Virus record (IMG/VR): IMGVR_UViG_3300041409_000136 | Location: 1-42,153 of that record | Length of the DNA stretch: 42,153 nt | Reading direction: 5' to 3' (one strand) | Origin: a virus | Shown here: positions 1 through 17,715 of the stretch, piece after piece | Position numbering within the stretch: position 1 is the stretch's first letter | How the letters are laid out: each line of letters starts with the position of its first letter | Made by a program: the position numbers and the translations under genes | The notes under the pieces: model-generated | Databases searched by the model: none | Seen by the model: only the letters and a program-made list of their open reading frames with translations | Told to the model about the DNA's origin: nothing

Positions 1-2
1 GG

Positions 3-119
3 TACCGGCTTTACGACACCACCAATGGCCCGCGCGTGCTTCTCATGTCTCGTATCAATTGGGTGGCGTTGCAGTACGAGATGCCATCCGTTCTGTGGAG
101 GGAGCTACATAGCCAATGA
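3..119 (+). CDS. C-terminal end of a hypothetical protein (cut by window start)
   Basis: An open frame enters from the left edge and ends at TGA 117-119. Its last residues read ...WRELHSQ. The stop overlaps the ATG of the next gene in an ATGA junction, the usual sign of translational coupling in this operon. Only 38 codons are visible. An internal ATG at 45 could be a start of a very short protein, but a continuation from upstream is more likely. I recognise no domain. Confidence 0.5.
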   Translation, partial: YRLYDTTNGPRVLLMSRINWVALQYEMPSVLWRELHSQ

Positions 120-451
120 AGGACCCCCATATCCATGTGGAGAAAGACGTCTTCTTTCCGCAAGCCATGGTTCAGAAGGTAGTAAGTGAGACGACGGGCA
201 TTGTGGTGCCCCTCCCAAAGACCATTACAACGGGCTGTGGGCGCCGTAGACCGTTCGGAAAGACGTCTGCGACCCCTGACATGGTGACGTGTCTAGCATG
301 CCGTGAGTACGCTCGTGAGCTTTTTGGGCATGCTGCGCACATGGCCCGCTCAGTCCTCATGATGGACGATGTCGACATGACGCCTTACACACGGGCAGTC
401 ATCGAAAGAGAAGTCCCCTACTATGAGGGAATGCGAAGGAAGTATTCATAA
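116..451 (+). CDS. Hypothetical small zinc-binding early protein
   Basis: A 111-residue protein whose start is fixed by an ATGA overlap with the preceding frame and a GGAGGGAGC ribosome site upstream. It contains TGCGRRR and, about 25 residues later, TCLACREYA. This arrangement of a lone Cys followed by a CxxC pair is common in small actinophage proteins that probably bind zinc. A His-rich stretch follows. No enzymatic motif is visible. It lies at the head of the visible early gene string, so a host-takeover or regulatory role is possible, but that is inference only. Confidence 0.7.
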   Translation: MKDPHIHVEKDVFFPQAMVQKVVSETTGIVVPLPKTITTGCGRRRPFGKTSATPDMVTCLACREYARELFGHAAHMARSVLMMDDVDMTPYTRAVIEREVPYYEGMRRKYS

Positions 452-475
452 TCTAGTAGAAGGGATCCCCCACGT

Positions 476-778
476 ATGGGTATGCATCATCTCCGTTATG
501 CCCTGAGCAAGATGCGTGATGACGATATTCTCACGGTTCGTCAAGTCAGGAAGTTGATCGCGAGACGCAAAGGAGGTGATATCGAAAAAATGGAATACGT
601 ACATGGGGAAAAGCATTACAAATCGAAACTCAACGAAGACGACGTGCGTACCATCCGGAAAAGAGCGGCGGAAGATGATTCCTGGGGATCACGTAGGCGC
701 CTGGCGGAAGAGTATGAAGTACATGAAACTACCATTCTCGCTATCATAAACCGCACCTCGTGGAAGCACGTTGACTAG
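476..778 (+). CDS. Small helix-turn-helix DNA-binding protein, possible dual start
   Basis: The C-terminal half (about residues 52-100) reads like the small HTH often found in phage HNH-linked and regulatory proteins: KLNEDDVRTIRKRA, then RRLAEEYEVHETTILAIINR ending in TSWKHVD. Here LAEEYEVHETTI is the helix-turn-helix core and the tail is the conserved W-x-HV type. This suggests sequence-specific DNA binding. The first ATG (476) has a modest site (GAAGGGAT). A near-perfect ribosome site AGGAGGTGAT lies inside the frame at 571-580, followed by an in-frame ATG at 590. A 62-residue form holding just the HTH could therefore be made instead or in addition. It is the only recognisable HTH protein in the window. 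Confidence 0.7.
   Translation: MGMHHLRYALSKMRDDDILTVRQVRKLIARRKGGDIEKMEYVHGEKHYKSKLNEDDVRTIRKRAAEDDSWGSRRRLAEEYEVHETTILAIINRTSWKHVD
571..592 (+). promoter_or_regulatory. Strong internal ribosome binding site with ATG start
   Basis: AGGAGGTGAT is a near-complete match to the anti-Shine-Dalgarno complement. It is followed after 9 nt by ATG at 590, in frame with the gene that opens at 476. It is by eye the best ribosome site in the early region, which makes the shorter product a serious candidate for the main start. Confidence 0.6.
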
Positions 779-830
779 TCGGTAGGTTGGCGGACCATTA
801 GGGGGAATGGTGCGCTTTCCTACCAACTAG
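775..830 (+). terminator. Nested hairpin after the HTH gene
   Basis: The outer stem is CTAGT-c-GGTAGG (775-786) with CCTACC-a-ACTAG (819-830). The inner stem is ACCATT (794-799) with AATGGT (806-811). There is no T-run, so either a U-tract-poor terminator or an RNA-processing/stability hairpin is possible. The interior shares a 22-base word with the hairpin at 2689-2732 in inverted orientation. Confidence 0.5.
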
Positions 831-841
831 AAAGGATCCCA

Positions 842-1189
842 ATGTACGCATTAACCAAATACGACGTGCCAAGAGCAGGAATCAAACCATTAGGATTCGC
901 ATGGTTCGAGCTGTACGCCCGCGATGCTAGCGGGGGATTCTGGTCCACCGTTCTCATGGGTCACGAAGCATGGCAGGCTACCCCCCACAAAGGCAAAGCC
1001 GTAAATGGGTCTACCGAATGGCGCCAAGATCACATGGCATTGTTCGTACTCGCTACTCTCTACCCTGATCGCTTCCAATGGTGGACGGCCGAACTACCCG
1101 ATGAACTGACAGAGGATGGGTTCGTCAGTAGATCGATATTCGACTACTTCCCCCAATGGACACACCTGCTGGCAAGTGTCCACCCCTAA
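842..1189 (+). CDS. Hypothetical protein
   Basis: A 115-residue acidic protein rich in Trp and Phe, with AAAGGA seven bases before the ATG. I recognise no domain. It has no signal peptide and no membrane segment. It begins just after the nested hairpin, so it probably belongs to a new or attenuated transcript. Codon 4 and codon 19 are TTA, the leucine codon that is rare in Streptomyces. The 3' end overlaps the longest possible version of the next frame, but not the start preferred here for that gene. Confidence 0.7.
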   Translation: MYALTKYDVPRAGIKPLGFAWFELYARDASGGFWSTVLMGHEAWQATPHKGKAVNGSTEWRQDHMALFVLATLYPDRFQWWTAELPDELTEDGFVSRSIFDYFPQWTHLLASVHP

Positions 1190-1227
1190 TATCCATCCGG
1201 GGGCCGTACAGGGAGCGAGCAAGACCA

Positions 1228-1437
1228 ATGGTATACACGAACCATTGGAGTACCTACTATGACGAGCCGTCCACCCTTTACTCGTCTGTCTGCGCTATGG
1301 ACGGATGTGGGTGGGAATCTCCCTGGGATACCAGTGAGCGGCATATACGCGGTTTACAGATCAAGCACCATACGCAAACTGGACACGCTAAATTCTGGGA
1401 TCAGTGGATTCATCGTGTCCTTCTGGAATTGCTTTAG
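1228..1437 (+). CDS. Small zinc-finger-like hypothetical protein
   Basis: A 69-residue protein starting at the ATG of MVYTNHW, behind GGGAG. An upstream ATG at 1156 would add 24 residues that overlap the previous gene and look non-coding. The core has two Cys (CAMDGCGWES) and, about 20 residues on, IKHHTQTGHAKFW. This C-x4-C ... H-x5-H pattern resembles the short treble-clef proteins common in Streptomyces phages, in which a Cys pair and a terminal His pair hold one zinc. Function unknown. Confidence 0.65.
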   Translation: MVYTNHWSTYYDEPSTLYSSVCAMDGCGWESPWDTSERHIRGLQIKHHTQTGHAKFWDQWIHRVLLELL

Positions 1438-1522
1438 GTAGCAAAATGGCCTACCACCCCCACCCCTCCGAAGGGTGGTCGGCCGTCTTGTTCCCTAAAG
1501 CAGGGAACGGTACGGCACCATC

Positions 1523-1684
1523 ATGCACGCGCACTATTTGGCCCACCTTCACTACCTCAGCTACAAAGCGGAAATGCTTGGCTACATTCTGGCATCTCGC
1601 CTACCATGGATCGCGAGATCTACACCCCCTCCAGTGCTTCCCCCACACGACGACACAGACGACCACGTGGCGAATGCCGCGTAA
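1523..1684 (+). CDS. Small hypothetical protein (53 aa)
   Basis: A 53-residue frame beginning MHAHYLAHLHYLSYKAEMLG and followed by a Pro-rich then acidic tail (STPPPVLPPHDDTDD). The Tyr/His-rich amphipathic N-terminus and acidic end look like a real peptide rather than a shadow, and it fills the gap between two genes on the same strand. The ribosome site is weak (GGGAACGG at long spacing). Function unknown. A longer frame in another phase (1404-1787) runs across the region but looks non-coding. Confidence 0.45.
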   Translation: MHAHYLAHLHYLSYKAEMLGYILASRLPWIARSTPPPVLPPHDDTDDHVANAA

Positions 1685-1705
1685 CGGACATCAGGAGACA
1701 GTGAT

Positions 1706-2677
1706 ATGGTTGCAAGGACAGCACGGACAGCACGGACAGCAAAGCCCCAGACCCACGAGAACACTCCGGATCACACTCCGGACGTAGTAGATATAGACAC
1801 AGCTCAGGCGACGCCTGAGCCGACAGAAGAGGAGCCGACCCCCACCATGACCGCTGTAACAGAAGAGTCTGAGGCTGCCGCTCAGGGCGCCACGGACGCC
1901 ACGGACGACGAGGGTACCGACGAGAACGACGAGAACGGTTCAGAGGAGGAAGAGGAGGACGGGGAAGAGGAGGCGAATACGCCTACCGATCTGAGCCAGC
2001 ACCCAAACAGCACTGTGAGGGAGGTTTGGGCAACTCTCCAGTCAAATACCGCCGCGTATCAGGCTGCAATCAATGAGCTTACCGAGAAGCGGCCCCCTAC
2101 TCCCGATGAGCTGACGTCGCTTATCGACGCGTCCGACGAAGAGGACATTGTCAGTCTGCGCGATGCGCTGGCCGAGATCCGCGCTCAGGTAGCTCAGCGG
2201 AAGAAAGAGCTTGATGAGGCAATGCTCGCCACTCTGACTATTGCCTCTCCTGATGAGGCTCAGCAGCTCACGGATAGAGTGAATGGGAAGAAGCTTCTTG
2301 TTACCGAAGCGCTTGATCTTCTGGTCAAGCTGGCGACCGTTCTCAAATTCGCCGATGTTCCGGTAGCGGTTGCTGAATTCAGGCGATCCATGCCCAACCT
2401 GTCGGGCAATGCTTCCTCCTCCAATCTCAAGTCGGTCAATGCTGGCAAGCGCTTCCTTGCCCGTATCGCTGCCATCACCGTCACTAAGCCCGATGGCGTC
2501 GTGATGACGTACAAGACAATCGGGCAGGCTAGCGTATATGCACAGAATGCCTCCACAGAGGAAATCGGCGAAGCTTGGAAGCATGAGGCGCGCGTGAAGA
2601 AGTGGCAGGACATCAAGGAGCCTGTCACCTTCGAACTGCGTGAGGTCACGTACACGATTACCCCCCTCCCCCACTAG
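1706..2677 (+). CDS. Acidic, coiled-coil hypothetical protein (323 aa)
   Basis: The ATG at 1706 follows AGGAGACAG with good spacing. Residues 1-95 are low complexity: Ala/Thr/Arg first, then a strongly acidic run of Glu/Asp. Residues 110-185 are Ala/Leu/Glu-rich and predicted coiled coil (DALAEIRAQVAQRKKELDEA). A small folded C-terminal domain (about 245-320, VTYTITPLPH at the end) shows alternating hydrophobic strands. The build (disordered acidic arm, coil, small domain) suggests a protein-protein or DNA-mimic role, but I recognise no family. It is the largest gene left of the replication operon. Confidence 0.7.
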   Translation: MVARTARTARTAKPQTHENTPDHTPDVVDIDTAQATPEPTEEEPTPTMTAVTEESEAAAQGATDATDDEGTDENDENGSEEEEEDGEEEANTPTDLSQHPNSTVREVWATLQSNTAAYQAAINELTEKRPPTPDELTSLIDASDEEDIVSLRDALAEIRAQVAQRKKELDEAMLATLTIASPDEAQQLTDRVNGKKLLVTEALDLLVKLATVLKFADVPVAVAEFRRSMPNLSGNASSSNLKSVNAGKRFLARIAAITVTKPDGVVMTYKTIGQASVYAQNASTEEIGEAWKHEARVKKWQDIKEPVTFELREVTYTITPLPH

Positions 2678-2688
2678 TCAGCGGTAAT

Positions 2689-2732
2689 GGGAATGGTGCG
2701 CTCTGTGATTCGGGAGCGAGCGCACCATTCCC
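2689..2732 (+). terminator. Perfect 15-bp hairpin after the 323-aa gene
   Basis: GGGAATGGTGCGCTC (2689-2703) pairs with GAGCGCACCATTCCC (2718-2732) around a 14-nt loop. No T-run follows, so it could be a terminator of the GC-rich actinobacterial type or a processing hairpin. Only 5 nt later a tRNA-like element begins. Confidence 0.6.
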
Positions 2733-2737
2733 CCTAA

Positions 2738-2780
2738 TGGGATTCTGGCATGGGGTGGTTCGATTCCACCAATCCCACGA
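2738..2780 (+). ncRNA. Minimal tRNA-like element (acceptor plus T-arm only)
   Basis: TGGGATT (2738-2744) pairs perfectly with AATCCCA (2771-2777). Between them is a 9-nt linker, then a T-arm with a perfect 5-bp stem GGTGG/CCACC and the canonical 7-nt loop TTCGATT. The anticodon arm and a D-stem are absent. CGA follows where a tRNA would have CCA. It is either the scar of a deleted tRNA or a selected mini-helix RNA. Twelve intact pairs and a canonical T-loop argue against simple decay. Confidence 0.5.
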
Positions 2781-2824
2781 CTTGTTATTGCCCCTACTAC
2801 ATGACCGCGATTTAGGGACGGGCT

Positions 2825-3181
2825 ATGCCCCAAATTCTGATCAAACCAAATCCCAATGAGGATTTCTATATTTACTGGTCTACAGATGCAGAGATGCCCC
2901 TGCTTTGGGGGACACAAGAGCGAATCACAGAGGAAATGGTACGCGATGCACAAGAACGCGCTAAGAAGGAAGTCACGGCATATCTACATAAGGCCATACC
3001 GCGCGCCTCCACATTCGGTAGTTCGACTCCACAATATTCTGTGTGGAACAGGTCTCGGTGGATTCGCGTGCATGGGAATCGACGCATCCTGAAGGTGAAC
3101 ATTCCACGGTACGTAAAGCTGTTGGAGGCTGAACGCAATACAGAGGCGGATGCACTGCTAGAACCATGGGCACGCGACTGA
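2825..3181 (+). CDS. Hypothetical protein
   Basis: A 118-residue protein with AGGGACGGG just before the ATG. It has a charged helical middle (EEMVRDAQERAKKEV) and a Trp/Arg-rich segment (YSVWNRSRWIRVHG). No family recognised, no Cys clusters, no membrane segment. It stands alone between the tRNA-like element and a 530-base non-coding stretch. Confidence 0.65.
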   Translation: MPQILIKPNPNEDFYIYWSTDAEMPLLWGTQERITEEMVRDAQERAKKEVTAYLHKAIPRASTFGSSTPQYSVWNRSRWIRVHGNRRILKVNIPRYVKLLEAERNTEADALLEPWARD

Positions 3182-3261
3182 GGAATATGTCCGCATGGTT
3201 TGCCTCGCGCCGATTGCCAATAGCAATTGCAGAGTGATTAGATCCTCTGGCTATGCGGAAT

Positions 3262-3305
3262 GGGGTGGTTCCGGTTGGACCCCCGTATGTTGCCGGAACC
3301 ACCCC
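3262..3305 (+). terminator. Perfect 13-bp hairpin
   Basis: GGGGTGGTTCCGG (3262-3274) pairs with CCGGAACCACCCC (3293-3305) around an 18-nt loop, about 80 nt after the stop of the gene at 2825-3181. It resembles the other long stem hairpins of this region and is not followed by a T-run. It probably ends transcription before the regulatory stretch that follows. Confidence 0.55.
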
Positions 3306-3710
3306 CACATACCCCTAGACAGCTCTGAGAGGCACGGTAACAAGATCAGCACTCCCCCGGACACATCCGTCCAACCCCGGATAGTTCGGCCGTCTACGGG
3401 CATCCTAGGACGTGACTTAATTGTTACCGTTTATGCCTGTTAATGCCCCTCTGTGGGCGTAGTGTGGCGTATGTCCGTTTCGCCAATGACCGGTTTGTCT
3501 GGTAATTGAGCTGGTATCCTAATTAGTGTTGTCCATCATCACCTATCCAGCGCAAATGCGTTAAGGCGTCATGCTCTGAGCTGCAAAAACGTCTGCCGTA
3601 CTTTCGTTCCCTGTCGTGATCTTGTCGTCTGATTCATGGCGCTAGCTGCACAAACATGTACCCCTCTGTGTTCGTCCTTGTCGTGATCTTGTTGTCAGGA
3701 GAAAAGCACC
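3306..3710 (+). promoter_or_regulatory. Long non-coding leader before the 68-aa gene
   Basis: This is about 400 bases without a credible gene. It lies between a terminator-like hairpin and a gene with a good ribosome site (CAGGAGAAAAG), so a promoter is expected here. TTGTCT at 3495-3500 with TAATTA near 3520 is the best hexamer pair I can see, but the spacing (19) is poor and I would not rely on it. The 3' part holds two imperfect direct repeats (listed separately). An origin or operator function is also possible. Confidence 0.35.
3579..3697 (+). repeat. Two imperfect tandem repeats of about 50 bases in the leader
   Basis: Copy 1 (3579-3629) and copy 2 (3644-3697) both start AGCTGCA-AAAC and both end in a near-identical block around TGTCGTGATCTTGT. 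Between these the two copies are looser. The period is about 65-67 bases. Copy 2 ends in the ribosome site of the gene at 3711. Duplicated leader sites of this sort may be operators or regulatory RNA elements. Confidence 0.6.
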
Positions 3711-3917
3711 GTGAATCCCGCTGTCCAGTGGCTCGAAGTCGTATATGACGCACATCAATTCGTGCCCAACATTGCATCGCCTAGTCGCTACCGCCGCAAT
3801 TTCTTCTCCATTAAGTACGATCACCATCCCCTATGCGACTGCACACCATTAGCTAGTGACGACCCCGAAGTGAACTTTCCTAGTGATTTTCTCCTAGACA
3901 CAGACCCCCGCTATTAG
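3711..3917 (+). CDS. Small hypothetical protein (68 aa)
   Basis: A GTG start behind CAGGAGAAAAG. The protein is 68 residues, acidic toward the end (SDFLLDTDPRY), with a central His/Cys patch (KYDHHPLCDCTP) that could bind a metal. No family recognised. It is the first gene downstream of the duplicated leader and shares a transcript with the basic protein at 3936 (18-nt gap). Confidence 0.6.
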   Translation: MNPAVQWLEVVYDAHQFVPNIASPSRYRRNFFSIKYDHHPLCDCTPLASDDPEVNFPSDFLLDTDPRY

Positions 3918-3935
3918 GAAGGATAGGACACGACC

Positions 3936-4277
3936 ATGGGCAAGAAGCGCGCAACATTCAGCTCGCGTAGCCAGGATCGTAAGGCAGACAGGATCATCGC
4001 TCAGAAGACTGCAGAGGGACGCAACAGGCGTCTACGGCAGAATGGTGAGCCAACCCCGTACGAGACGGCTAAGGCCCAATCTACGGCTCGCCGCATGGCA
4101 CGTATCGATGCAGCCAAAGCGGCGAACACGTACAAGCCACCGACTTTCAATGAACGGGGTTTCATTGTCGACGTGGTGGACGGCCATACCGTCCTACGTG
4201 ACCCCGATAATTGGGCTAAGCGGCGGAAGGCAAGATTCGCTGCCGTAGCCAGCGGGCGGGCAGAGACAACCGTCTAA
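3936..4277 (+). CDS. Basic hypothetical protein (113 aa)
   Basis: The ATG follows AGGAAGGATAGGA. The protein is very basic, with Arg/Lys/Ala-rich helical sequence across residues 1-70 (RKADRIIAQKTAEGRNRRLR; STARRMARIDAAKAAN). A short C-terminal portion carries GFIVDVVDGHTVLRD. The composition suggests nucleic-acid binding, but no fold can be named. The gene is followed by a structured non-coding region. Confidence 0.65.
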   Translation: MGKKRATFSSRSQDRKADRIIAQKTAEGRNRRLRQNGEPTPYETAKAQSTARRMARIDAAKAANTYKPPTFNERGFIVDVVDGHTVLRDPDNWAKRRKARFAAVASGRAETTV

Positions 4278-4287
4278 ACACAAGATT

Positions 4288-4368
4288 CCTAATCCGAGAG
4301 CATGGTGTCTGGGGAGATCCTAGGACACGGTTTGGGAACGCCGTCATGAAACAAATTCTCGGATTAGG
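4288..4368 (+). ncRNA. Structured RNA candidate closed by a 12-bp stem
   Basis: CCTAATCCGAGA (4288-4299) pairs perfectly with TCTCGGATTAGG (4357-4368). The 57-nt interior can form GTGTC/GACAC (4305-4309 with 4324-4328) or, mutually exclusively at its edge, ACGG/CCGT (4327-4330 with 4341-4344). This gives a branched RNA with a possible switch. A nine-codon ORF (4346-4372, MKQILGLG then stop) runs through the 3' half of the closing stem. It is followed 4 nt later by a tRNA-like element and then by a terminator, so the whole of 4288-4538 could be one small transcript. Confidence 0.45.
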
Positions 4369-4372
4369 CTAA

Positions 4373-4428
4373 GGGGAGCTAGGAACACTGGCACGGTAAA
4401 GGATGGTTCAAATCCGTCATCCCCACGA
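4373..4428 (+). ncRNA. tRNA-like element without anticodon arm
   Basis: GGGGA (4373-4377) pairs with TCCCC (4420-4424). The T-arm is GATGG/CCGTC with one G-T pair and the 7-nt loop TTCAAAT (4402-4418). The 24-nt linker has no room for both D and anticodon arms. ACGA follows, as in the element at 2738. Its acceptor is weaker (5 bp). It may be a degraded tRNA or a second copy of the mini tRNA-like design. Confidence 0.4.
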
Positions 4429-4490
4429 AATGGTCCTGGTTAGCCTTTTCCTAATTGGTTGATCAGGGCAAGTCCTCTGGCAGGAGGGCG

Positions 4491-4538
4491 ACAGGGCGGA
4501 CCATAGAGGCTGCCACACCATATGGTCCGCCCTGTTTT
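4491..4538 (+). terminator. Intrinsic terminator
   Basis: ACAGGGCGGACCATA (4491-4505) pairs perfectly with TATGGTCCGCCCTGT (4521-4535), and TTTT (4535-4538) follows. This is the clearest rho-independent terminator in the left arm. It separates the structured RNA region from the secreted-protein gene. Confidence 0.8.
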
Positions 4539-4567
4539 CATGTAGTCGAGTAGAAAGCATCCTCACA

Positions 4568-5035
4568 GTGAATTTTAAGTCAGGTATCATCGCCGGTCTG
4601 ATTGCTGGCACTCTTGCCGTAGCAGGGGGAATTGTAGCCGCTAGTGCTGAGGTAGATCCAGACATTCGTTTTACCAGCGTTCGATACAACCCCTGGGGTG
4701 CCGACACTGCTGCCAATGTGAATCAGGAATGGTTTGTCCTTAAGAATTACGGTTCCTCAGTTGCTGATCTCTCCGAACTGAATTATGTGGTGGAGGATGC
4801 ACAGGGTACTGAATTCCATTTCACGAGCCACCCCGTCATCCTTGCCCCCGGACAGTCCGTGACTGTGCATTCCGGCCAGGGTACCGACTCCCCCGGACAT
4901 ACTTATTGGGATCTCGGCTATCACGTGTGGGGCAATAGCGCTGACAGTGCCACCCTGTACCAGGGTGATCCTGACAATGGCGGTTTCCGTGAGGACCGTG
5001 TGCGTTGGTCACGCGACACCATTGTCGCTAGCTAA
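4568..5035 (+). CDS. Secreted lamin-tail domain (LTD) protein
   Basis: A 155-residue protein with a clear signal peptide: short basic start, hydrophobic IIAGLIAGTLAVAGGIVA, and a likely cut after ASA at about residue 28. The mature part matches the bacterial lamin-tail (LTD) beta-sandwich. EWFVLKNYGSSVADLSEL (the E-W/V-L-N-G-x2-D-L-S motif) is followed by HPVILAPGQSVTVHSGQGTD (the LAPG-s-v-t-V-H-x-G-x-G motif) and a WGNSADSATLY strand. LTDs bind DNA, glycans or proteins at cell surfaces in other bacterial contexts. The phage protein would be exported by a lysogen or an infected cell. The start is GTG with a weak ribosome site. It sits alone between a terminator and a hairpin-tRNA pair, as cargo (moron) genes often do. 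Confidence 0.75.
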   Translation: MNFKSGIIAGLIAGTLAVAGGIVAASAEVDPDIRFTSVRYNPWGADTAANVNQEWFVLKNYGSSVADLSELNYVVEDAQGTEFHFTSHPVILAPGQSVTVHSGQGTDSPGHTYWDLGYHVWGNSADSATLYQGDPDNGGFREDRVRWSRDTIVAS

Positions 5036-5044
5036 TTAGAGCTT

Positions 5045-5087
5045 GGATGGTGCGCTATGGGAATCAGGGGTCTGTAGCGCACCATCC
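5045..5087 (+). terminator. Perfect 13-bp hairpin just before the tRNA
   Basis: GGATGGTGCGCTA (5045-5057) pairs with TAGCGCACCATCC (5075-5087) around a 17-nt loop. No T-run. It lies 9 nt after the LTD gene stop and 7 nt before the tRNA. It shares the core ATGGTGCGCT with the hairpin at 2689. Besides termination, a tRNA 5'-leader or processing role is possible. Confidence 0.55.
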
Positions 5088-5094
5088 GAGGTAC

Positions 5095-5167
5095 GCGGAT
5101 ATATCCCAATGGTAGAGGAAGCGGATTTAAGTCCCGCCTAGTGAGGGTTCGAATCCCTCTGTCCGCA
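5095..5167 (+). tRNA. tRNA with anticodon UAA (predicted tRNA-Leu, TTA codon)
   Basis: A 73-nt cloverleaf: acceptor GCGGATA (5095-5101) with TGTCCGC (5160-5166, one G-T pair), discriminator A 5167. The D-arm is TCC/GGA with GGTAGA in the loop. The anticodon stem is GCGGA/CCCGC, its loop-closing pair A-C mismatched. The loop is TTTAAGT with anticodon TAA at 5128-5130. The variable loop has 5 nt, and the T-arm is GAGGG/CCCTC with TTCGAAT. No CCA is encoded. UAA predicts leucine, and A73 agrees with leucine identity. However, bacterial tRNA-Leu normally has a long variable arm, which is missing here. In Streptomyces the matching host tRNA is the developmentally regulated bldA product. Confidence 0.85.
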
Positions 5168-5208
5168 CGTCCTTTTTGGGCTAACCATCTCATCCCTGTG
5201 AGGCTGAA

Positions 5209-5457
5209 ATGAACTATCCTGAAAACCTCCCCCTATATCACACAGCTCTCATCGATCCAGAATTCACCACCGTGTTGGGTATTGCTCGTCATGGTCGGCT
5301 CGAATTCGCCTTTCCGCGCGGATGCCGATACAAGGACATCAAGGACATGGCAGATTGCTGTCACGGCTATGTCTACATGGCCGATGTCCGCACCACGTAC
5401 GAACTGCTGGGACCCAACAGGTACTACGACACTTCACCCAAAGTAGTAAGGTTGTAA
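5209..5457 (+). CDS. Small hypothetical protein (82 aa)
   Basis: The ATG follows GTGAGGCTGAA. The 82-residue protein has a hydrophobic/aromatic composition (YPENLPLYHTALIDPEF; GYVYMADVRTTYELLG) and a Cys pair (MADCCHG). No domain recognised. It lies 9 nt upstream of the helicase and is the first gene of the long replication operon after the tRNA, so translation of the helicase may be coupled to it. Confidence 0.65.
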   Translation: MNYPENLPLYHTALIDPEFTTVLGIARHGRLEFAFPRGCRYKDIKDMADCCHGYVYMADVRTTYELLGPNRYYDTSPKVVRL

Positions 5458-5466
5458 CCAAACCGA

Positions 5467-7065
5467 ATGCCTACCCCATTCAATCATCAGCTAACAGTCG
5501 CAGATCAAATTGCCGTAACAGGTAGCGCGATAATATTGGCTGATGAGATGGGGCTAGGCAAAACGCTAACGGCGATCCTAGCCATTCAGAAAGCCGGTAT
5601 CGCCCGCTCGCTTTTCGTGGCGCCGAAAGAGATCATCGCTAACCTTTCCCTTGAAATTCCATTATGGACCGATATACCGGTTTTCGATCTCAGGGGAAAG
5701 AGTCGCATTGAACGCCAAGCCATTTGCCAGATTCTCGACAGTGTCAGCAAGTTCATTTTGCTCGTCAATCTGGAAACGTGGTCACGCGACAAATCGATGA
5801 TTGAGCATCTGTCCAGGCTGCGATTTGAGGCGTTGGTCATTGATGAAGCTCACCATATCAACAACTCAGAAACGTCCGCATACAGAGGAGTACGTGAACT
5901 AAGGTACGCCATCAATCAATGTCCTAAATGCCAGTCTGCCTACCGTGCGCAATTCCTCTGCATCCGCAAGGATTGTGAAAGTCGCCACAAGCTCAACAAT
6001 TTTCGATACTGTCTCACGTGCGGATTCCAGCAGCGCCAAGTCTCTATACCCCCATGCCGGACATGTCGATTTCAGGTCCGTGAGGATCTAGATAATGCCA
6101 TGTCGGTACGGCATCTCATTGCTATGACGGGCTCGACTCTCGTCAATCAGGCTACGGACGTATGGACCCTGCTACACCTAGTGGACCGCCACGAGTTCCC
6201 AAGTCAGAAAGGATATATCAAGGCATTCTGCGAACCATCCCCCGATGGTAAGCCACAATTCCGAGAGCACGGCGAGAGAGATCTACGGCTTCAATTGGGG
6301 TCGCGATACATCAGGCGCACCAAGGAAGATGCCGGAATCGTATTACCCCCTCAGTCGATTGAGGTACTTGAGTACGACATCGACGAGAAGCGCTATCCCG
6401 ACCAATACCGGATTTACCGTCAGATTAAAAAGTCCTTTGCAATACAGCTTGAAGAACAGACGGTTAGCATTCCGGAGGTAGTCACTCAGCTTATGCGATT
6501 GCGGCAGGCCATTACATGGCCCGCTGGAATCGTAATCCGTGATCCAGATACACAGGAAATAATTGCACAGTGCAATGTAGAGGAGAGTCAAAAACTTGAT
6601 ATCTGTGAATCGCTACTACGTAACTACATGGCACAGGGCGAAAGATGCATTGCGTTCTCTCATTTTAAGGCGCCTCTACATGAGCTACAGAGGCGACTTG
6701 GAAATACGACTGTTGTCTATGACGGATCTACATCTGACAAAATCAGAACAGCTATCAAGAAGGACTTTGCCCCCCATAATTCAAATCCAGAATGGCAAGC
6801 TGTCCTCTGCAATTATCGAAGCGCTGGCGAGGGACTGTCCTTTACCGGTGCGACACAAACTATTGTCATTGATGAAGATTGGTCCCCCGCCAAGAATGGA
6901 CAAGCGTACGGTCGTACTCACCGTTTGGGACAACACGAGAGAACACGCGTACACATTCCACGTATCTCCAAAACGGTAGACACATGGATGGCAAGCCTAA
7001 ATGCCTCTAAGGTTTTTGGGCTAGACGACGCATTAGCGTCACTTCGGGAAACAGCTAACAGCTAA
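5467..7065 (+). CDS. SNF2-family (superfamily 2) DNA helicase/ATPase with zinc-ribbon insertion
   Basis: A 532-residue SWI2/SNF2-type ATPase that uses ATP to translocate on or remodel duplex DNA and probably serves phage replication or recombination. Helicase motif I is DEMGLGKT (residues 26-33), motif II is DEAH (126-129), and motif III is TGS (about 221-223). Near the C-terminus are the SNF2 signatures AGEGLSFTGA and YGRTHRLGQ (motifs V and VI). Between motifs II and III is an insertion with eight cysteines (152/155, 165/170, 182/185, 197/200), the layout of two zinc ribbons. The length is close to the minimal phage SNF2 helicases. The ATG is 9 nt after the previous stop with no strong ribosome site, suggesting coupling. 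Confidence 0.92.
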   Translation: MPTPFNHQLTVADQIAVTGSAIILADEMGLGKTLTAILAIQKAGIARSLFVAPKEIIANLSLEIPLWTDIPVFDLRGKSRIERQAICQILDSVSKFILLVNLETWSRDKSMIEHLSRLRFEALVIDEAHHINNSETSAYRGVRELRYAINQCPKCQSAYRAQFLCIRKDCESRHKLNNFRYCLTCGFQQRQVSIPPCRTCRFQVREDLDNAMSVRHLIAMTGSTLVNQATDVWTLLHLVDRHEFPSQKGYIKAFCEPSPDGKPQFREHGERDLRLQLGSRYIRRTKEDAGIVLPPQSIEVLEYDIDEKRYPDQYRIYRQIKKSFAIQLEEQTVSIPEVVTQLMRLRQAITWPAGIVIRDPDTQEIIAQCNVEESQKLDICESLLRNYMAQGERCIAFSHFKAPLHELQRRLGNTTVVYDGSTSDKIRTAIKKDFAPHNSNPEWQAVLCNYRSAGEGLSFTGATQTIVIDEDWSPAKNGQAYGRTHRLGQHERTRVHIPRISKTVDTWMASLNASKVFGLDDALASLRETANS

Positions 7066-7079
7066 CAGGAGACAGAGCA

Positions 7080-7490
7080 ATGGATCGCCTCACAGCAGCA
7101 AACCTGATTAACAACATGCATTACCGCCCTGGGTGGCGTTTCAAGGCGTCAACCCCCACTTCGGATTTCCCATCCCCCCTTAGCCTCTACGGACTACCCG
7201 ACAGAGGCAGCATGCTTATTCAGGTATGGGTGAAGGTGCAGGACTCCAGTAAGAGATACGCTCCCGATTATCTCCGCACGATAGAAGGAGAGCTAATCAA
7301 GTACGTGCGTTTCGCGCACTGTCAGACGCCGCTCGATCTCTATAGGGAGGTATTCGAAAGCGTCATCATGGATTTGGAGAGGCATGAGGCGCGCGAATTC
7401 TTTCGGGTTGGCGATGACTACAGCGCACCATTCCATCCGCACACCACCGAAGGGAAAATCAATCACGACCAATACGGGAGGGCAGAGTAG
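7080..7490 (+). CDS. Conserved phage hypothetical protein (136 aa)
   Basis: The ATG follows AGGAGACAGAGCA. The N-terminus LINNMHYRPGWRFKA and the C-terminal block REFFRVGDDYSAPFHPHTTEG look like the conserved actinobacterial/actinophage family in which a His-Glu helix precedes a DPHxxF/PFHPH-type ending. I know of no established function. A metal-site role for the conserved HEAREFF and PFHPH stretch is possible but unproven. It lies between the helicase and the ParB-like gene in the same operon. Confidence 0.7.
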   Translation: MDRLTAANLINNMHYRPGWRFKASTPTSDFPSPLSLYGLPDRGSMLIQVWVKVQDSSKRYAPDYLRTIEGELIKYVRFAHCQTPLDLYREVFESVIMDLERHEAREFFRVGDDYSAPFHPHTTEGKINHDQYGRAE

Positions 7491-7493
7491 GTC

Positions 7494-7847
7494 ATGGACC
7501 CCTACCCCCACAAGAGTAGTGAGTATCGGAAAGACAAGCTCGTCGCGCATTGCAGACGTGTAGCTGGTAACGGTGAACGTGTGTGGATCTTCCGTCCGGG
7601 GGGATTACCACATACAGAGACACAGGCACTCCAGATTATCGAGATGTGCGAAATATTGCAGGTTCCGGTTACCGACCTAGGATCATCCGAGCTTTTCCAT
7701 TCAATGGCCCGCATGATGCTCCAAATCAAAACGGGGCTGATGAGAGTAGAGGCGATGGTTGATGTCGGCTTGCTGCAAACACAAGACCCATCGAACGGGA
7801 GGCAGACCGTACAGCCTGCCAGAGAGGCGAACACGAATCTCCGTTGA
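7494..7847 (+). CDS. Hypothetical protein (117 aa)
   Basis: The ATG is 4 nt after the previous stop and uses the GGGAGGGCAGAG stretch as ribosome site. A basic N-terminus (SSEYRKDKLVAHCRRVAGNG) is followed by a helix-rich middle (TQALQIIEMCEILQVPVTDL; SMARMMLQIKTGLMRVEAMV). No known domain. The last 86 bases overlap the start of the next frame. Confidence 0.65.
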   Translation: MDPYPHKSSEYRKDKLVAHCRRVAGNGERVWIFRPGGLPHTETQALQIIEMCEILQVPVTDLGSSELFHSMARMMLQIKTGLMRVEAMVDVGLLQTQDPSNGRQTVQPAREANTNLR

Positions 7848-7977
7848 TGTAGAGGAGGGATACAACGCGGCGCGTCACACATGGGAGGTGTGCGACAGGG
7901 GTCTATTTGACGACCCCCGCAAGAAGGTGCGCAAGCGCCAACTAGAAAACGAAATATACAAGCTAGAGGAAAGTTGA
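7762..7977 (+). CDS. Small basic hypothetical protein (71 aa)
   Basis: An overlapping frame that continues past the stop of the previous gene to 7977. The part beyond the overlap (VEEGYNAARHTWEVCDRGLF, then charged helix to NEIYKLEES) looks like real protein. The overlapped part is basic and of doubtful quality, so the true start is uncertain: ATG 7762 or TTG 7759. No ATG or GTG start lies nearer the convincing region. The stop overlaps the ribosome site of the ParB-like gene. Confidence 0.5.
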   Translation: MSACCKHKTHRTGGRPYSLPERRTRISVDVEEGYNAARHTWEVCDRGLFDDPRKKVRKRQLENEIYKLEES

Positions 7978-7982
7978 AATTC

Positions 7983-8882
7983 ATGACAGAGGATTTGGCC
8001 ACCACTACCAAGGAATTGATGGTACGCCTTGACGAGAATGGCGTTCCATACATCCGCGACGGAAATGTGGTCACCTGGTACGAGAGGATTGGCCCGGCAA
8101 GAGCTGAGCAGATTCTTAAAACCTACAAAGTGGATTATCGCAAATACCGTGAGTCCTACGGGCAGGGTTTGGCCCGCGATATGGTCAACGGGTATTGGAA
8201 TTTCGACGGTTCACCCGTCCGCATCGATATCAACGGCAATTTGTTCGACGGCTCACACCGGCAACATGCCATCGTTCTCAGCGGAACGACTCAACTGTTC
8301 CTTATGATTGCTGGCTTGCCTGTGGAGGCGTACAACACGGCCGATACGGGGCTAGCACGCAATTATGGGGACACCCTACGTCGACGCGGTTTCCAGAACG
8401 CTAACGCGCGTACAGCGCTTGTGAAGTTGATCCGGCGTTGGGAGGACGGCCGTTCGCTGGACGATACTCAGCGATATACACCGTCCGAACTTGACGAGAC
8501 GCACGATAAATACGTGGACACCATTAGCCGCGCGGTTGCTAAGACGATGAGCACTCAGCGCAAAGTCGACATGCCGGGAGCCCTCGTATCCTTCTCATGG
8601 TGGAAACTATCGCAACTCGATATTGCGGATGCCCAAACGTTCCTTATCGGGCTAGCAGAGGGTGAGAACATTCGTCGCGGCATGCCCGTCTATACGCTAC
8701 GGGAACGGCTGAACAGAGAGAGGGATACCAAGCTCACGCGCATGCAATTTATGCACCTGGTGTTTGAGGCATGGAATGCATTCCGCACAGTCCTTCCCAA
8801 TGGGGAGCGTGAGCAGATCCATAGGCTCACCATTCCCGCCGGTATTACGATCCCTCGTATCAAGCTGATTGAGCCGAAATGA
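7983..8882 (+). CDS. ParB-like domain protein
   Basis: A 299-residue protein. The ATG at 7983 is preferred over a TTG at 7974 because GAGGAAAG (7966-7973) is then correctly spaced. Residues about 60-105 (RDMVNGYWNFDGSPVRID, then GNLFDGSHRQHAIVLSG) carry the D-G-x-H-R signature of ParB/Srx-type folds. In plasmid ParB and ParB-like phage proteins this loop binds nucleotide. The helical C-terminal half (LVKLIRRWEDG; FLIGLAEGENIRRGMPVYTL) matches the large actinophage family of such proteins. It may act as a nuclease-like or DNA-organising factor in replication, but the exact activity is not established. Confidence 0.7.
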   Translation: MTEDLATTTKELMVRLDENGVPYIRDGNVVTWYERIGPARAEQILKTYKVDYRKYRESYGQGLARDMVNGYWNFDGSPVRIDINGNLFDGSHRQHAIVLSGTTQLFLMIAGLPVEAYNTADTGLARNYGDTLRRRGFQNANARTALVKLIRRWEDGRSLDDTQRYTPSELDETHDKYVDTISRAVAKTMSTQRKVDMPGALVSFSWWKLSQLDIADAQTFLIGLAEGENIRRGMPVYTLRERLNRERDTKLTRMQFMHLVFEAWNAFRTVLPNGEREQIHRLTIPAGITIPRIKLIEPK

Positions 8883-9241
8883 GCCTTCCCAGAAAACTAG
8901 ACCATTGCCCACGTACTCCAGAATGCATGGCAAAGGCTGTATGGATCGATGACGACACGGGTTCTCTGTTCAGAATGGATGGTAAGCACCAAGCATTTGT
9001 GCCACACCTCTGCACAGTGCGAGGATCCGAGAAACCGAAAATGGTCTATCTCGCAGAGTGGTACAACACGCGCACGCAGCGAACCCGATGGGTAGGACCC
9101 GCGCGCATGCGTTCATCTGTCGAGAAGCCACCTGGTGACGGAATCGTGCGACGTCCGTCTAGGTCGCAATCCGCAGACCCGCAATGGGTGCTTCGGGACA
9201 CATACGTGATGGAGGGCGATTGGTGTCGCCTAGATAAGTAA
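8879..9241 (+). CDS. Hypothetical protein (120 aa)
   Basis: It starts in an ATGA overlap with the ParB-like gene. The N-terminus contains two Cys (DHCPRTPECMAK) and the protein is rich in Arg and Trp. The middle (YLAEWYNTRTQRTRWVGP) is strand-like. No family recognised. It is followed by an 80-nt gap containing an imperfect inverted repeat. Confidence 0.6.
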   Translation: MSLPRKLDHCPRTPECMAKAVWIDDDTGSLFRMDGKHQAFVPHLCTVRGSEKPKMVYLAEWYNTRTQRTRWVGPARMRSSVEKPPGDGIVRRPSRSQSADPQWVLRDTYVMEGDWCRLDK

Positions 9242-9247
9242 CAGGTA

Positions 9248-9292
9248 GCCTCATGCCGGGATTTCGCCGTACGCAGCAATGCAGCATGAGGC
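9248..9292 (+). repeat. Inverted repeat between genes
   Basis: GCCTCATGC (9248-9256) pairs with GCATGAGGC (9284-9292) across a 27-nt loop. It lies just upstream of the ribosome site of the gene at 9324. It may be a weak terminator or an operator. No T-run. Confidence 0.3.
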
Positions 9293-9323
9293 GCGTCACA
9301 CTCAGAGAAGGGAACAGAGGTAA

Positions 9324-9680
9324 ATGGACCCCGTAGTAAAAGCTAAATGGACGGCCGCACTTCGCTCAGGGAATTACCAGCAGGGTACAGAATACCTGCA
9401 AATGAGGGTAGATGGTGAATCATACTACTGTTGTCTTGGCGTGCTTTGTGAGCTTGCCATTGAAGCGCGAATCTCCGTATCGGCTACCGAACATACTTCC
9501 TCCACACGTGGTGGCTATTCCTACGTTCTCTATAATAACGGCAACGTTGGTCTGCCCCCCGGTACTGTCCTAGCGTGGGCAAGACTAGAAGAGAAGGACA
9601 TGCAGGACCTAATTGAGATGAACGACAATAAGGGCACATCCTTTCACGGGATCGCCAAACACATTGACGAAAATCTCTGA
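9324..9680 (+). CDS. Conserved actinophage protein, paralogue of the gene at 16806
   Basis: A 118-residue protein with AGAGGTAA before the ATG. Its opening (PVVKAKWTAALRSGNYQQG) followed by YYCCLGVLCELAIEA, and later LPPGTVLAWARL and MNDNKGTSFHGIAKHIDE, form a family seen often in actinobacterial phages. The consensus is VK..W..ALRSG.Y.QG, CCLGVLC.LA, then P..V..W. A second copy is encoded at 16806-17195 (W.ALRSGEYEQG, CPLGVLCDLAV, LPRSVRQWAAL, LLNDYYHCNFSEIADMIEE). Function unknown. The Cys-Leu-Gly-Val-Leu-Cys core may bind metal or form a small compact fold. Confidence 0.75.
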   Translation: MDPVVKAKWTAALRSGNYQQGTEYLQMRVDGESYYCCLGVLCELAIEARISVSATEHTSSTRGGYSYVLYNNGNVGLPPGTVLAWARLEEKDMQDLIEMNDNKGTSFHGIAKHIDENL

Positions 9681-9692
9681 TGGGTGAATGCA

Positions 9693-9800
9693 ATGTTAAA
9701 AAATTGGCGTTGCTGGTGTGGAAATTCCAATCCATTCATACGCATTAAGTGTAAGTGCGGACGGTACAAGCCTGTAGTTGTGGACGGCGGAAAGAAGTAA
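9693..9800 (+). CDS. Tiny zinc-knuckle protein (35 aa)
   Basis: A 35-residue frame with CWC in its first ten residues and CKC about 11 residues later, i.e. two CxC pairs suited to bind one zinc. It has a basic, glycine-ending tail (VVVDGGKK). An in-frame GTG at 9684 gives an alternative start with the previous stop 4 nt upstream. Its 3' end provides the ribosome site of the next gene. Such tiny zinc proteins recur through this operon. Confidence 0.5.
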   Translation: MLKNWRCWCGNSNPFIRIKCKCGRYKPVVVDGGKK

Positions 9801-9802
9801 GA

Positions 9803-10111
9803 ATGCCTAATGAGGAAATCTTTGTTGTCGGTACGGGAGAACGGCCAGTCGATTACCTAGCTAGCGCTGTACGCGTCCAGCGAAGCAATCCAAAAGAAGC
9901 TCCCGCTGTAATGGATCTCATTGCGCTTGCAAGTATCGTGGTGAAGTTGGAACATGACGTTGCCGTTCTGAGACTCGAAATTGCGAGCCTGTCAGCAGCT
10001 ATCAGTATCTTAAAGAACAAGTACGAACGTGCCATTAGATACCGCGAAGCGATGAGCATCATTCAGGCAATCCAAGAATATGATCCTGATGAAGATGATG
10101 ATGAGGTGTGA
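9803..10111 (+). CDS. Coiled-coil hypothetical protein (102 aa)
   Basis: The ATG at 9803 is chosen over an upstream ATG (9755) that would overlap the zinc-knuckle gene and add Cys-Arg-rich shadow sequence. The GGAAAGAAG stretch serves as ribosome site. Residues about 35-85 are a long amphipathic helix (LASIVVKLEHDVAVLRLEIA, then SLSAAISILKNKYERAIRYR). The tail is very acidic (YDPDEDDDEV). Probably a dimeric coiled coil. Function unknown. It overlaps or abuts the next gene. Confidence 0.65.
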   Translation: MPNEEIFVVGTGERPVDYLASAVRVQRSNPKEAPAVMDLIALASIVVKLEHDVAVLRLEIASLSAAISILKNKYERAIRYREAMSIIQAIQEYDPDEDDDEV

Positions 10112-10113
10112 CA

Positions 10114-10359
10114 ATGACAGTAATTGATCCAGTGGTTATTACCTTCCTTGGACGCGCGATGCGTGAGGATGCACGCTCTAAGGCCACGGGCATTGCACCC
10201 ACTAGGCGCGCATTCCATGCCGGATGCCGTGAGACGTGCCTACAGGTCATCGCCGAAATGACCGGCAACACCGTGGCGAATATCAGACGGGGTGTCTTAG
10301 GTGTCAGCCACGATTCCAGCATTGAGTACGCACGTGTCGTGGGTGAGCTGACCGAATGA
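10114..10359 (+). CDS. Small hypothetical protein (81 aa)
   Basis: The ATG at 10114 is 2 nt after the previous stop and uses GATGAGGTG as ribosome site. A GTG at 10108 in a GTGA overlap is an alternative. The protein is helical and basic (FLGRAMREDARSKATG; RETCLQVIAEMTGNTVANIR). The segment around EMTGNTVANIRRGVLG resembles a short helix-turn-helix, but too weakly to claim one. No family recognised. Confidence 0.55.
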   Translation: MTVIDPVVITFLGRAMREDARSKATGIAPTRRAFHAGCRETCLQVIAEMTGNTVANIRRGVLGVSHDSSIEYARVVGELTE

Positions 10360-10526
10360 ATAAGCCCGTCGTTGCGATACTTCTCATCTTGTCCGGTATC
10401 TGCACGGCTATTAGCGCATTCCTGCTGTGGAACCTGACAGGTGCGTTGCTCACCATTGCCATTGAATGCACGCTTGCTGCATTAGTCCTCGTGGGAGAAA
10501 CAAAGGACAATGGCACGCGGCCATAA
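10356..10526 (+). CDS. Small membrane protein (56 aa)
   Basis: It starts in an ATGA overlap with the previous gene and runs 56 residues to TAA at 10526. Two hydrophobic segments are evident: VVAILLILSGICTAISAFLL and, after WNLTG, ALLTIAIECTLAALVLV. It therefore most likely forms a helical hairpin in the membrane. The charged C-terminus (GETKDNGTRP) overlaps the next gene. The role is unknown. Possibilities include an early membrane effector such as superinfection exclusion. Confidence 0.65.
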   Translation: MNKPVVAILLILSGICTAISAFLLWNLTGALLTIAIECTLAALVLVGETKDNGTRP

Positions 10527-10932
10527 GAATCAGTACGTCGATTTCAGTCGCAAGCCCAAACCAGGTTCATCCAAGAAACCATCAGTTTTGGATCCAGAAC
10601 CTAGGGAACGAATTGCGGCGCGTTTCGTAATACTAGGCGTCGCGACGCGTGCGGAATGGACACGCGAAGATTATGTCAACATGCTAGAACATTTGGCCCT
10701 AGATGATGATTGTTTTCTACCAGAAATTGTCACGCTAATACACGAACATGAAGGACGGTTTGCCATGACCCCCACAGCTCACACAGTAACAGTCACCTTT
10801 GATAATGCGATTGCCGCTCGTGCCTTTGCAGATTCCGTTAGGGAGGGTGGAACGGTTGTTGTCATTGATGAGTCCAGTAGCGAGGGTGTTGACACCTATT
10901 ACCCTGCTACTGTCGCTGACACGAATGAGTAA
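10510..10932 (+). CDS. Hypothetical protein (140 aa)
   Basis: It overlaps the end of the membrane-protein gene by 17 bases. AAAGGAC precedes the ATG closely. The basic, Ser/Pro/Lys-rich N-terminus (RKPKPGSSKKPSV) is probably disordered. It is followed by a helical part (TREDYVNMLEHLALDDDCFL) and a C-terminal beta part (TAHTVTVTFDNAIAARAFAD, then VVVIDESS). The C-terminal portion looks like a small alpha/beta domain. Function unknown. It overlaps the next gene by 8 bases. Confidence 0.65.
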   Translation: MARGHKNQYVDFSRKPKPGSSKKPSVLDPEPRERIAARFVILGVATRAEWTREDYVNMLEHLALDDDCFLPEIVTLIHEHEGRFAMTPTAHTVTVTFDNAIAARAFADSVREGGTVVVIDESSSEGVDTYYPATVADTNE

Positions 10933-11152
10933 CGCTCTCGCATACATTGATGGAGGCGGATTCTTCGAATTGCGTATCCATCGCTCACCGGAGGACAGCA
11001 ACTATCTTGCCACCATTGTCAAAGCGGACGGTACCTATTCCGGCTTCGACGACAACGCGCTAGGCGCCCTGCTTAAGGCGATCCAGCGGGAGCAAAGGAC
11101 TAGCGGCCACACCATTACCGAGACTCACGAGGTGACGGATGGGAAAACATGA
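10925..11152 (+). CDS. Small hypothetical protein (75 aa)
   Basis: The start at ATG 10925 overlaps the previous stop by 8 bases. A longer version from 10799 would be entirely overlapped shadow. The protein reads ALAYIDGGGFFELRIHRS, then YLATIVKADGTYSGFDDNAL and a charged helix (GALLKAIQREQRTSG), a small alpha/beta fold with no name. Its 3' end overlaps the gene at 11139 by 14 bases. Confidence 0.6.
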   Translation: MSNALAYIDGGGFFELRIHRSPEDSNYLATIVKADGTYSGFDDNALGALLKAIQREQRTSGHTITETHEVTDGKT

Positions 11153-11576
11153 CGATACTGAACCATTTGAAATCCCCCGGAATCGTGCGGCATGGAAGTT
11201 GGGGCTTACCATTGGGGTCACTCTGTGGCTAGCCGTAATGGTGATAAGCGTTCCCCTCGTGGCAGGCAAGCTCAGTAAGGTCACACTGCAAGCCGTGAAG
11301 ACGCGCACCATGTACGCCACCAAGCAAATGCCTCCAACGACCGCTACGGCGACCGTACGGGCGACGCGCACAGTTCATGGTCCCATTACCCGCGTCACGA
11401 TTCCGGGGGCTGTACGGACGATTACAGCCACGCGCACCATTACCGTGCCAGCCCCCGTACGCACACGCACGATTCGCGCGACTGCTACGGTCACGGCCAC
11501 CGTGCGCATGCATATTCCAGCCCCCACAGTCACAGTTACCGAGACAGAAATTATGGTGGATGTCAATGGCAATTGA
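11139..11576 (+). CDS. Single-pass membrane protein with Thr/Arg/Val repeat region
   Basis: The ATG follows GAGGTGACGG. A short charged N-terminus is followed by a hydrophobic helix (LGLTIGVTLWLAVMVISVPL, about residues 20-43), then about 100 residues of repeated T-R-T-x and VTVPAPVRT-like units (ATRTITVPAPVRTRTIRAT; PAPTVTVTETE). These Pro/Val/Thr repeats are common in surface-anchored actinobacterial and actinophage proteins and probably form an extended stalk outside the membrane. No catalytic domain is attached. Role unknown. It may alter the cell surface. Confidence 0.7.
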   Translation: MGKHDDTEPFEIPRNRAAWKLGLTIGVTLWLAVMVISVPLVAGKLSKVTLQAVKTRTMYATKQMPPTTATATVRATRTVHGPITRVTIPGAVRTITATRTITVPAPVRTRTIRATATVTATVRMHIPAPTVTVTETEIMVDVNGN

Positions 11577-12714: not shown

Positions 12715-12716
12715 AA

Positions 12717-13175: not shown

Positions 13176-13296
13176 TTAATTAGATTGGGCCGGAATCGCG
13201 ATTTGCTTGACGCGATGGTGTGGTGGGTTTCCGGGGGCGGGCGATGTGGTACCCCGCACAAATTGGTTGGCATTCTATCGAAAAGGGGTGGAGTAA

Positions 13297-13446: not shown

Positions 13447-13468
13447 CAGATGCCGGAGGTATCGACAT

Positions 13469-15735: not shown

Positions 15736-15736
15736 C

Positions 15737-16718: not shown

Positions 16719-16719
16719 C

Positions 16720-17443: not shown

Positions 17444-17450
17444 GAACAGA

Positions 17451-17484: not shown

Positions 17485-17497
17485 CTGACGTCCTAGC

Positions 17498-17686: not shown

Positions 17687-17715
17687 TCCGTACCCCGATC
17701 GTTGATCGCTGCATT

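Follow-up and report, generated by a model that had tools for sequence, protein, structure and literature searches.

The window, the whole 42,153-base virus record IMGVR_UViG_3300041409_000136 (51.7% GC), contains three modules in which a long stem-loop is followed after a few nucleotides (nt) by a full tRNA or by a tRNA-like element without an anticodon arm (mini-tRNA). We propose that each of the three sites carries the same kind of cassette, that this cassette belongs to a wider set of actinophage gene-end cassettes, and that it would punctuate polycistronic early transcripts (probability ∼0.58). The proposed order of the cassette is stop codon, 6–11 nt, long stem-loop, 4–6 nt, and a tRNA elbow domain, supplied by a full tRNA or by a mini-tRNA. 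Transcription would run through the sites, and host RNase P would cut at the 5′ boundary of the acceptor/T-arm domain and free the upstream message. The stem-loop, then near the new 3′-end of that message, would block 3′–5′ exonucleases, and the other side would be trimmed by RNase Z or another nuclease. A tRNA in such a cassette could drop its anticodon arm and still act as a cut signal. Support for this processing reading comes from the Thermobifida phage P318, in which corresponding positions past stop codons are taken either by a mini-tRNA or by a hammerhead ribozyme.

Anatomy of the three modules

2689..2732, plus strand: module 1 stem-loop, 15-base-pair (bp) perfect stem (2689–2703/2718–2732), beginning 11 nt past the stop codon at 2677
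2738..2777, plus strand: module 1 mini-tRNA-like element with acceptor, D-loop-like CTGGCA and T-arm; no D-stem, no anticodon arm
4288..4368, plus strand: module 2 stem-loop, 12-bp perfect outer stem (4288–4299/4357–4368) with an inner branched loop, 10 nt past the stop codon at 4277
4373..4424, plus strand: module 2 mini-tRNA-like element with 5-bp acceptor, D-like hairpin GCTAG/CTGGC and T-arm; no anticodon arm
5042..5090, plus strand: module 3 stem-loop, outer stem 5042–5057/5075–5090 (15 of 16 bp), 6 nt past the stop codon at 5035
5095..5167, plus strand: module 3 full tRNA-Leu(TAA) of class I length (ARAGORN; Rfam, 53.3 bits)

A first-pass annotation of this DNA had described a 15-bp perfect hairpin at 2689–2732, a 12-bp stem at 4288–4368 separated by 4 nt from what follows, and a full tRNA at 5095–5167, and we recovered all three. 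Stem 3, given there as 13 bp at 5045–5087, is present but longer, and the gaps between stem and tRNA-like element, given as 4–7 nt, measured 6 (or 5), 4 and 4 nt at modules 1, 2 and 3. The earlier account did not state the post-stop placement: all three stems begin 6–11 nt past the stop codon of the preceding open reading frame (ORF).

In mini-tRNA 1 the acceptor TGGGATT/AATCCCA forms 7 bp (alternatively, 6 bp plus A73), CTGGCA lies between acceptor and T-arm, and a 5-bp T-stem carries the loop TTCGATT. Mini-tRNA 2 has the T-arm GATGG/CCGTC. That both anticodon-less elements keep their pairing, as previously claimed, holds for the first, but the second is weaker than described. Both finish in A-C-G, as does the tRNA.

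Leu(TAA) is the sole tRNA of the window by ARAGORN and Rfam, and only site 3 combines a score above the curated 29-bit cut-off of the Rfam tRNA family (RF00005) with a cloverleaf and a 7-nt anticodon loop. Both mini-tRNAs stay below that cut-off (12.5 bits for 4361–4422; the 2738 element was not reported), and ARAGORN detected neither the 2738 nor the 4373 element. A transfer-messenger RNA (tmRNA) or permuted tRNA identity was rejected as not fitting the order of the parts or the ARAGORN result; the ARAGORN tmRNA search and Rfam were both negative in the window. The idea of a phage attachment site (attP) was dropped, because the integrase (18059–19222) is distant from the mini-tRNAs and attP would not contain the 5′ acceptor strand.

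The features of an RNase P substrate (acceptor coaxial with the T-arm, G53–C61, and a TTCRANY T-loop) are present, as judged by sequence and pairing, in mini-tRNA 1 and in the tRNA; mini-tRNA 2 appears to have them too, but its acceptor is shorter. The mini-tRNAs retain what RNase P recognises. E. coli RNase P RNA can cleave a hairpin in which an acceptor stem is joined to a T-stem and T-loop, and RNase P acts on phage M3 RNA, C4 antisense RNA and certain mRNAs as well (PMC11143913).

The core ATGGTGCGCT, reported earlier as common to hairpins 1 and 3, was found in both. Since the stems and loops of the two align, we regard sites 1 and 3 as likely duplicates of one cassette. The alignment extends to the tRNA ends, and site 1 looks like a duplicate of the site 3 cassette whose tRNA was shortened by ∼32 nt, which gives some substance to the tRNA decay that the first-pass annotation had offered as one explanation. 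Taken further, the mini-tRNAs of the window would be functionless scars of tRNA genes minus their middle, and the stems ordinary terminators or repeats. We consider this unlikely, although several observations speak for it: a 47-nt mini-tRNA with D-arm and T-arm and without anticodon arm lies inside a 25-tRNA array of a 119-kb phage (locus L031, ∼18200–18250, minus strand), another locus (L178) has a lone T-arm remnant, and tRNA fragments are common among prokaryotes (PMC9897764). Simple decay does not readily explain that both window elements keep the T-arm pairing, and mini-tRNA 1 the full acceptor, while the rest was lost, nor that this happened at two sites, each behind a stem.

The modules are unlikely to be chance arrangements. 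We scanned both strands of the window for acceptors preceded by a TTCRANY loop on a 5-bp T-stem. Just three sites with a good acceptor were found (2738–2777, 4373–4424 and 5095–5167), and one extra T-arm match, on the minus strand, has a poor acceptor. One short element with a 7-bp acceptor was observed compared with 0.02 per window in dinucleotide shuffles, and three of a looser class compared with 0.17 (at most two in any of 200 shuffles). Only 2.7% of the intergenic positions of 1–7847 are situated 0–8 nt past a long stem; given intergenic placement, all three modules would be stem-adjacent by chance with a probability of ∼2e-5, a rough figure, the stems having been chosen first. Whole-module folding z-scores were −3.6, −3.3 and −4.1 for modules 1, 2 and 3.

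Mini-tRNAs and ribozymes share gene junctions

A strict scan for mini-tRNAs gave seven hits in the viral loci (2.04 Mb) and no hit in the bacterial loci (1.26 Mb). P318 has three mini-tRNAs, and Rfam also placed five Hammerhead_II ribozymes above its cut-off in one operon of this phage; single ribozymes were found in the Microbacterium phage Shocker and the Cellulosimicrobium phage DS1, and none in the eight other loci searched.

P318, 46056–46112, minus strand: mini-tRNA A, anticodon-less, unannotated
P318, 43033–43087, minus strand: mini-tRNA B, anticodon-less, unannotated
P318, 43650–43714, minus strand: mini-tRNA C, anticodon-less, unannotated
P318 (locus L188), 8019–8096, 8727–8803, 9172–9249, 9585–9664 and 10469–10548, minus strand: hammerhead ribozymes, each 0–9 nt past a stop codon
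Shocker (locus L005), 1594–1677: hammerhead ribozyme (Rfam), 2 nt past gene 64
DS1 (locus L006), 14514–14583: pistol ribozyme (Rfam), starting at the end of a coding sequence

The P318 mini-tRNAs fold into a compact cloverleaf with a 6-bp acceptor, a 4-bp D-arm, a normal T-arm and a third arm without the 7-nt anticodon loop, with folding z-scores of −3.9, −3.3 and −3.2 (A, B and C). Between A and B, one pair of the third arm is changed on both sides and another on a single side. Standard tRNA finders overlook such elements; the published P318 genome paper mentions tRNA solely in connection with an RNA ligase and lists no tRNA gene.

In the direction of transcription, the P318 devices are a hammerhead, mini-tRNA A, four hammerheads, mini-tRNA C and mini-tRNA B, situated 0, 11, 9, 0, 5, 6, 16 and 20 nt past an ORF (two of these ORFs are unannotated and were taken from the ORF list). 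Eight post-stop sites of one operon are therefore occupied by five ribozymes and three mini-tRNAs. No other observation argues as strongly that the mini-tRNAs may likewise serve transcript cutting. Of the two halves of the first-pass interpretation, processing is the better supported one, drawing support from the P318 junctions.

A broader proposal, to which we give slightly less than even odds, is that actinophages use interchangeable post-stop RNA-cutting devices (stem plus tRNA, stem plus anticodon-less mini-tRNA, and hammerhead or pistol ribozyme) that would divide the transcripts of early operons into single-gene messages with protected ends, the mini-tRNAs being an undescribed RNA class, one version of which stands unannotated in ∼250 mycobacteriophage records. 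No description of such cassettes was found in the open literature, subscription papers lying outside the scope, and it is a real possibility that an interchangeable gene-end cutting system has not been described before.

A covariance model built from P318 A and B (R1) had its best match outside the training set at window positions 2739–2777 (21.2 bits, rough E 0.01); the match lacks two arms, and it is weak, since several ordinary tRNAs score nearly as high. R1 also ranks an unannotated Shocker mini-tRNA of 62–63 nt (L005, 9274–9336, in the gap behind an AAA-ATPase gene), with ordinary tRNAs again scoring close. A DNA pattern of mini-tRNA 1 had no match in viral contigs, and in phages blastn matched it only to parts of ordinary tRNAs and to unrelated sequence, never across most of the element.

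A maintained mini-tRNA in cluster A mycobacteriophages

Kykar, 48361–48424: intergenic mini-tRNA with a hairpin upstream

The 161-nt query comprising the Kykar mini-tRNA and its hairpin matched 395 Mycobacterium phage records, 251 of them across at least 80% of the query, and a chance-match reading of the element was abandoned after these matches; cluster E phages share the hairpin part only. In a hand-made, structure-fitted alignment of Kykar, Killigrew, SkiPole and Medusa, pairing survives two-sided changes at 10 of the 16 pairs of acceptor, third arm and T-arm, one gap being the sole exception. An unfitted MAFFT alignment, with six two-sided pairs, had 95.7% of its cells paired compared with 85.2% in shuffles, none of the 500 reaching the observed value, and no more than 43% in slid controls. 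The D-loop GCAGGTTCGC is almost invariant, and the element has no Rfam family match. The cluster A element is a maintained RNA structure. This strong covariation and the similar cassettes in unrelated actinophages support the existence of the family of stems plus mini-tRNAs posited in the first-pass annotation.

The compensatory changes in the cluster A and P318 mini-tRNAs also bear on decay, because at least those elements must be maintained. For the window, decay of former tRNAs may still apply, since no close relative was found: protein-pattern searches of viral contigs and blastn in phages gave none, and a helicase-neighbourhood search in bacteria gave no close prophage. Decay and a processing family are not mutually exclusive.

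A model of the cluster A element (R2) had its best match in 0.84 Mb at P318 element B (26 bits, E 7e-4). R2 gave no window match at E ≤ 1, and nothing was found across 201 bacterial genomes in a search run with no positive control.

The cluster A hairpin ends ∼5 nt before the mini-tRNA, and by eye a promoter-like sequence lies upstream of the cassette, as in an RNA gene. This placement, and the retention of elbow and acceptor with loss of the anticodon, are what one would expect if mini-tRNAs served as stable small RNAs, tying up host enzymes that work on the acceptor or elbow of tRNAs. Targets could be tRNA-cutting or tRNA-modifying defence proteins, and anticodon nucleases could not cut a decoy that has no anticodon; tRNA-aimed defences and phage tRNAs that evade them have been described (PMC10264068, PMC11555353, PMC12851939). 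We regard this as very unlikely, because it leaves unexplained the fixed post-stop place, the adjacent upstream stem and the P318 ribozymes in the same places.

In SkiPole (locus L223, 211–580), a variant mini-tRNA and a leftover 3′ half of the common version flank an ORF (gp93), an arrangement suggestive of gene cassettes having been swapped at the T-loop.

Long stems before tRNAs in other phages

Three loci obtained from helicase-based relatives and a search for the same tRNA have a long stem ending 3 nt before a tRNA: L012 (13 bp, CTCGCTACAGGTG/CACCTGTAGCGAG) before the homologous tRNA-Leu(TAA), L091 (16 bp, CTCGCTACAAGGGTTA/TAACCCTTGTAGCGAG) before the 5′ half of that tRNA, and L013 (16 bp) before tRNA-Ile. 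The L091 stem differs from that of L012 by changes on both sides that keep the pairing. Stems of 13, 15 and 19 bp (the last one perfect) precede tRNA-Leu in DS1, an unannotated tRNA-Leu in P318 and tRNA-Asn in the Gordonia phage MrWormie by 4, 6 and 4 nt, respectively. The MrWormie cassette separates the gene for the major tail protein from those for the tail assembly chaperones, a junction where differing message levels are expected.

A long stem (at least 10 Watson-Crick pairs within 8 nt) stands before 6 of the 37 distinct tRNAs that are first in their block, compared with 1.0% of the 3,156 positions behind ORF stops that served as controls. The enrichment is marked, yet most such tRNAs have no such stem. 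The ORF that follows the first tRNA of L012 begins 1 nt past it, and the next tRNA overlaps the stop codon of that ORF, a packing that fits tRNAs being excised from mRNA.

In L091 (∼9960–10500, minus strand), tRNA-Leu(TAA) is split in the anticodon arm, its 3′ half lying downstream of an insert that contains a putative HNH-type ORF (10059–10439) and another complete tRNA-Leu(TAA).

Dispersed motifs in the stems

Motif GAATGGTGCGC is present in 18 copies in the window (up to one mismatch) compared with 1.3 expected; its form GGAATGGTGCGCT occurs, for example, at 804, 2690, 2719 and 7422. A different dispersed motif, CTGTAGCG, is found in the tRNA stems of L012 and L013 (34 copies in the former phage, 31 in the latter). 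These motifs are possibly operators or recombination signals. Because stems 1 and 3 contain GAATGGTGCGC, those of L012 and L013 contain CTGTAGCG, and tRNA-less stems exist in the window at 3262, 4491 and elsewhere, the stems could serve the preceding genes as transcription terminators or as operators that bind a protein, behind which tRNAs inserted by chance at gene ends that tolerate insertion. This we judge quite unlikely: no T-run follows any of the three stems, these motifs are absent from stem 2 and from the DS1, P318 and MrWormie stems, and a terminator would silence the tRNA, because the gap of 3–6 nt leaves no room for a tRNA promoter.

Several observations weigh against the proposed gene-end cassettes. 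In the window, (i) RNAfold favours for mini-tRNA 1 a competing fold with a shifted T-stem; (ii) the acceptor of mini-tRNA 2 has just five contiguous pairs; (iii) no relative near enough for a covariation analysis of the two elements was found; (iv) stems 1 and 3 are each built from an inverted pair of the dispersed motif, which may have a function of its own; and (v) an Rfam search of positions 1–20000 at E ≤ 1 matched only the tRNA and no self-cleaving ribozyme. Elsewhere, 31 of the 37 first-of-block tRNAs and the second tRNA of L012 have no long stem, the Shocker mini-tRNA is ∼50 nt away from a long hairpin, and the cluster A cassette may lie in a 5′ leader rather than behind a gene.

Relation to known systems

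Phage tRNA genes in mRNA operons (tRNA punctuation, RF00005) likewise place a tRNA domain between same-strand ORFs with coding sequence close by, as the full tRNA of site 3 does; the window differs in the long stem just upstream and in two sites that have no anticodon arm and score below the Rfam cut-off. In the MALAT1–mascRNA system of animals, a tRNA-like RNase P substrate is immediately preceded by a stable RNA structure, and cutting leaves a protected 3′-end. The window shares the arrangement of a stable structure ahead of a tRNA-like, here putative, RNase P substrate, although the phage cassette has a simple hairpin where MALAT1 has a triple helix, and there is no homology. Hammerhead type II (RF02276) and pistol (RF02679) ribozymes occupy the same post-stop places in P318, Shocker and DS1; they self-cleave, whereas the mini-tRNAs are without such a fold and no such ribozyme was found in positions 1–20000 of the window. 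Model and non-tRNA substrates of RNase P (acceptor/T-arm hairpins, M3 RNA and C4 antisense RNA) have the acceptor stacked on the T-arm, which is sufficient for cleavage (PMC11143913); the window elements, here putative substrates, are natural, lie at gene ends and have a stem ahead.

It has long been asked why tRNA genes persist in phages, and if they acted as cut signals in the phage's own mRNA, the presence of tRNAs and tRNA-like elements unable to decode would be accounted for. The MALAT1 3′-end device would have a compact bacterial counterpart in the stem plus mini-tRNA. The idea is directly testable, since the phages that carry the cluster A version grow on the laboratory strain M. smegmatis mc2 155.

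Other features of the window

1706..2677, plus strand: ORF of 323 amino acids (aa), function unknown, whose stop codon precedes module 1; no match in Pfam or PHROG
3936..4277, plus strand: basic ORF of 113 aa, precedes module 2
4568..5035, plus strand: lamin-tail-domain protein of 155 aa (Pfam LTD, 1.6e-12), precedes module 3

The window encodes a siphovirus structural set, a Pol I-type polymerase, an SNF2-like helicase and a tyrosine integrase; its terminase and helicase have less than 40% identity to their counterparts in phages of actinobacteria.

A search with the hairpin core gave one match, about chance level (estimate 1–3): the core ATGGTGCGCTC in an unrelated phage contig (L004, 3263–3315), between two structural genes. 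At 3262–3430 of the window, a 13-bp stem is followed by a 10-bp stem (ACGGTAACAA/TTGTTACCGT) enclosing 77 nt, amid several hundred noncoding bases with direct repeats and no Rfam match; these stems could be another processing element. Stem-loops at 775–830 and 1430–1502 overlap stop codons and have no tRNA behind them, and that at 775–830 includes a 22-nt inverted copy of module 1 sequence.

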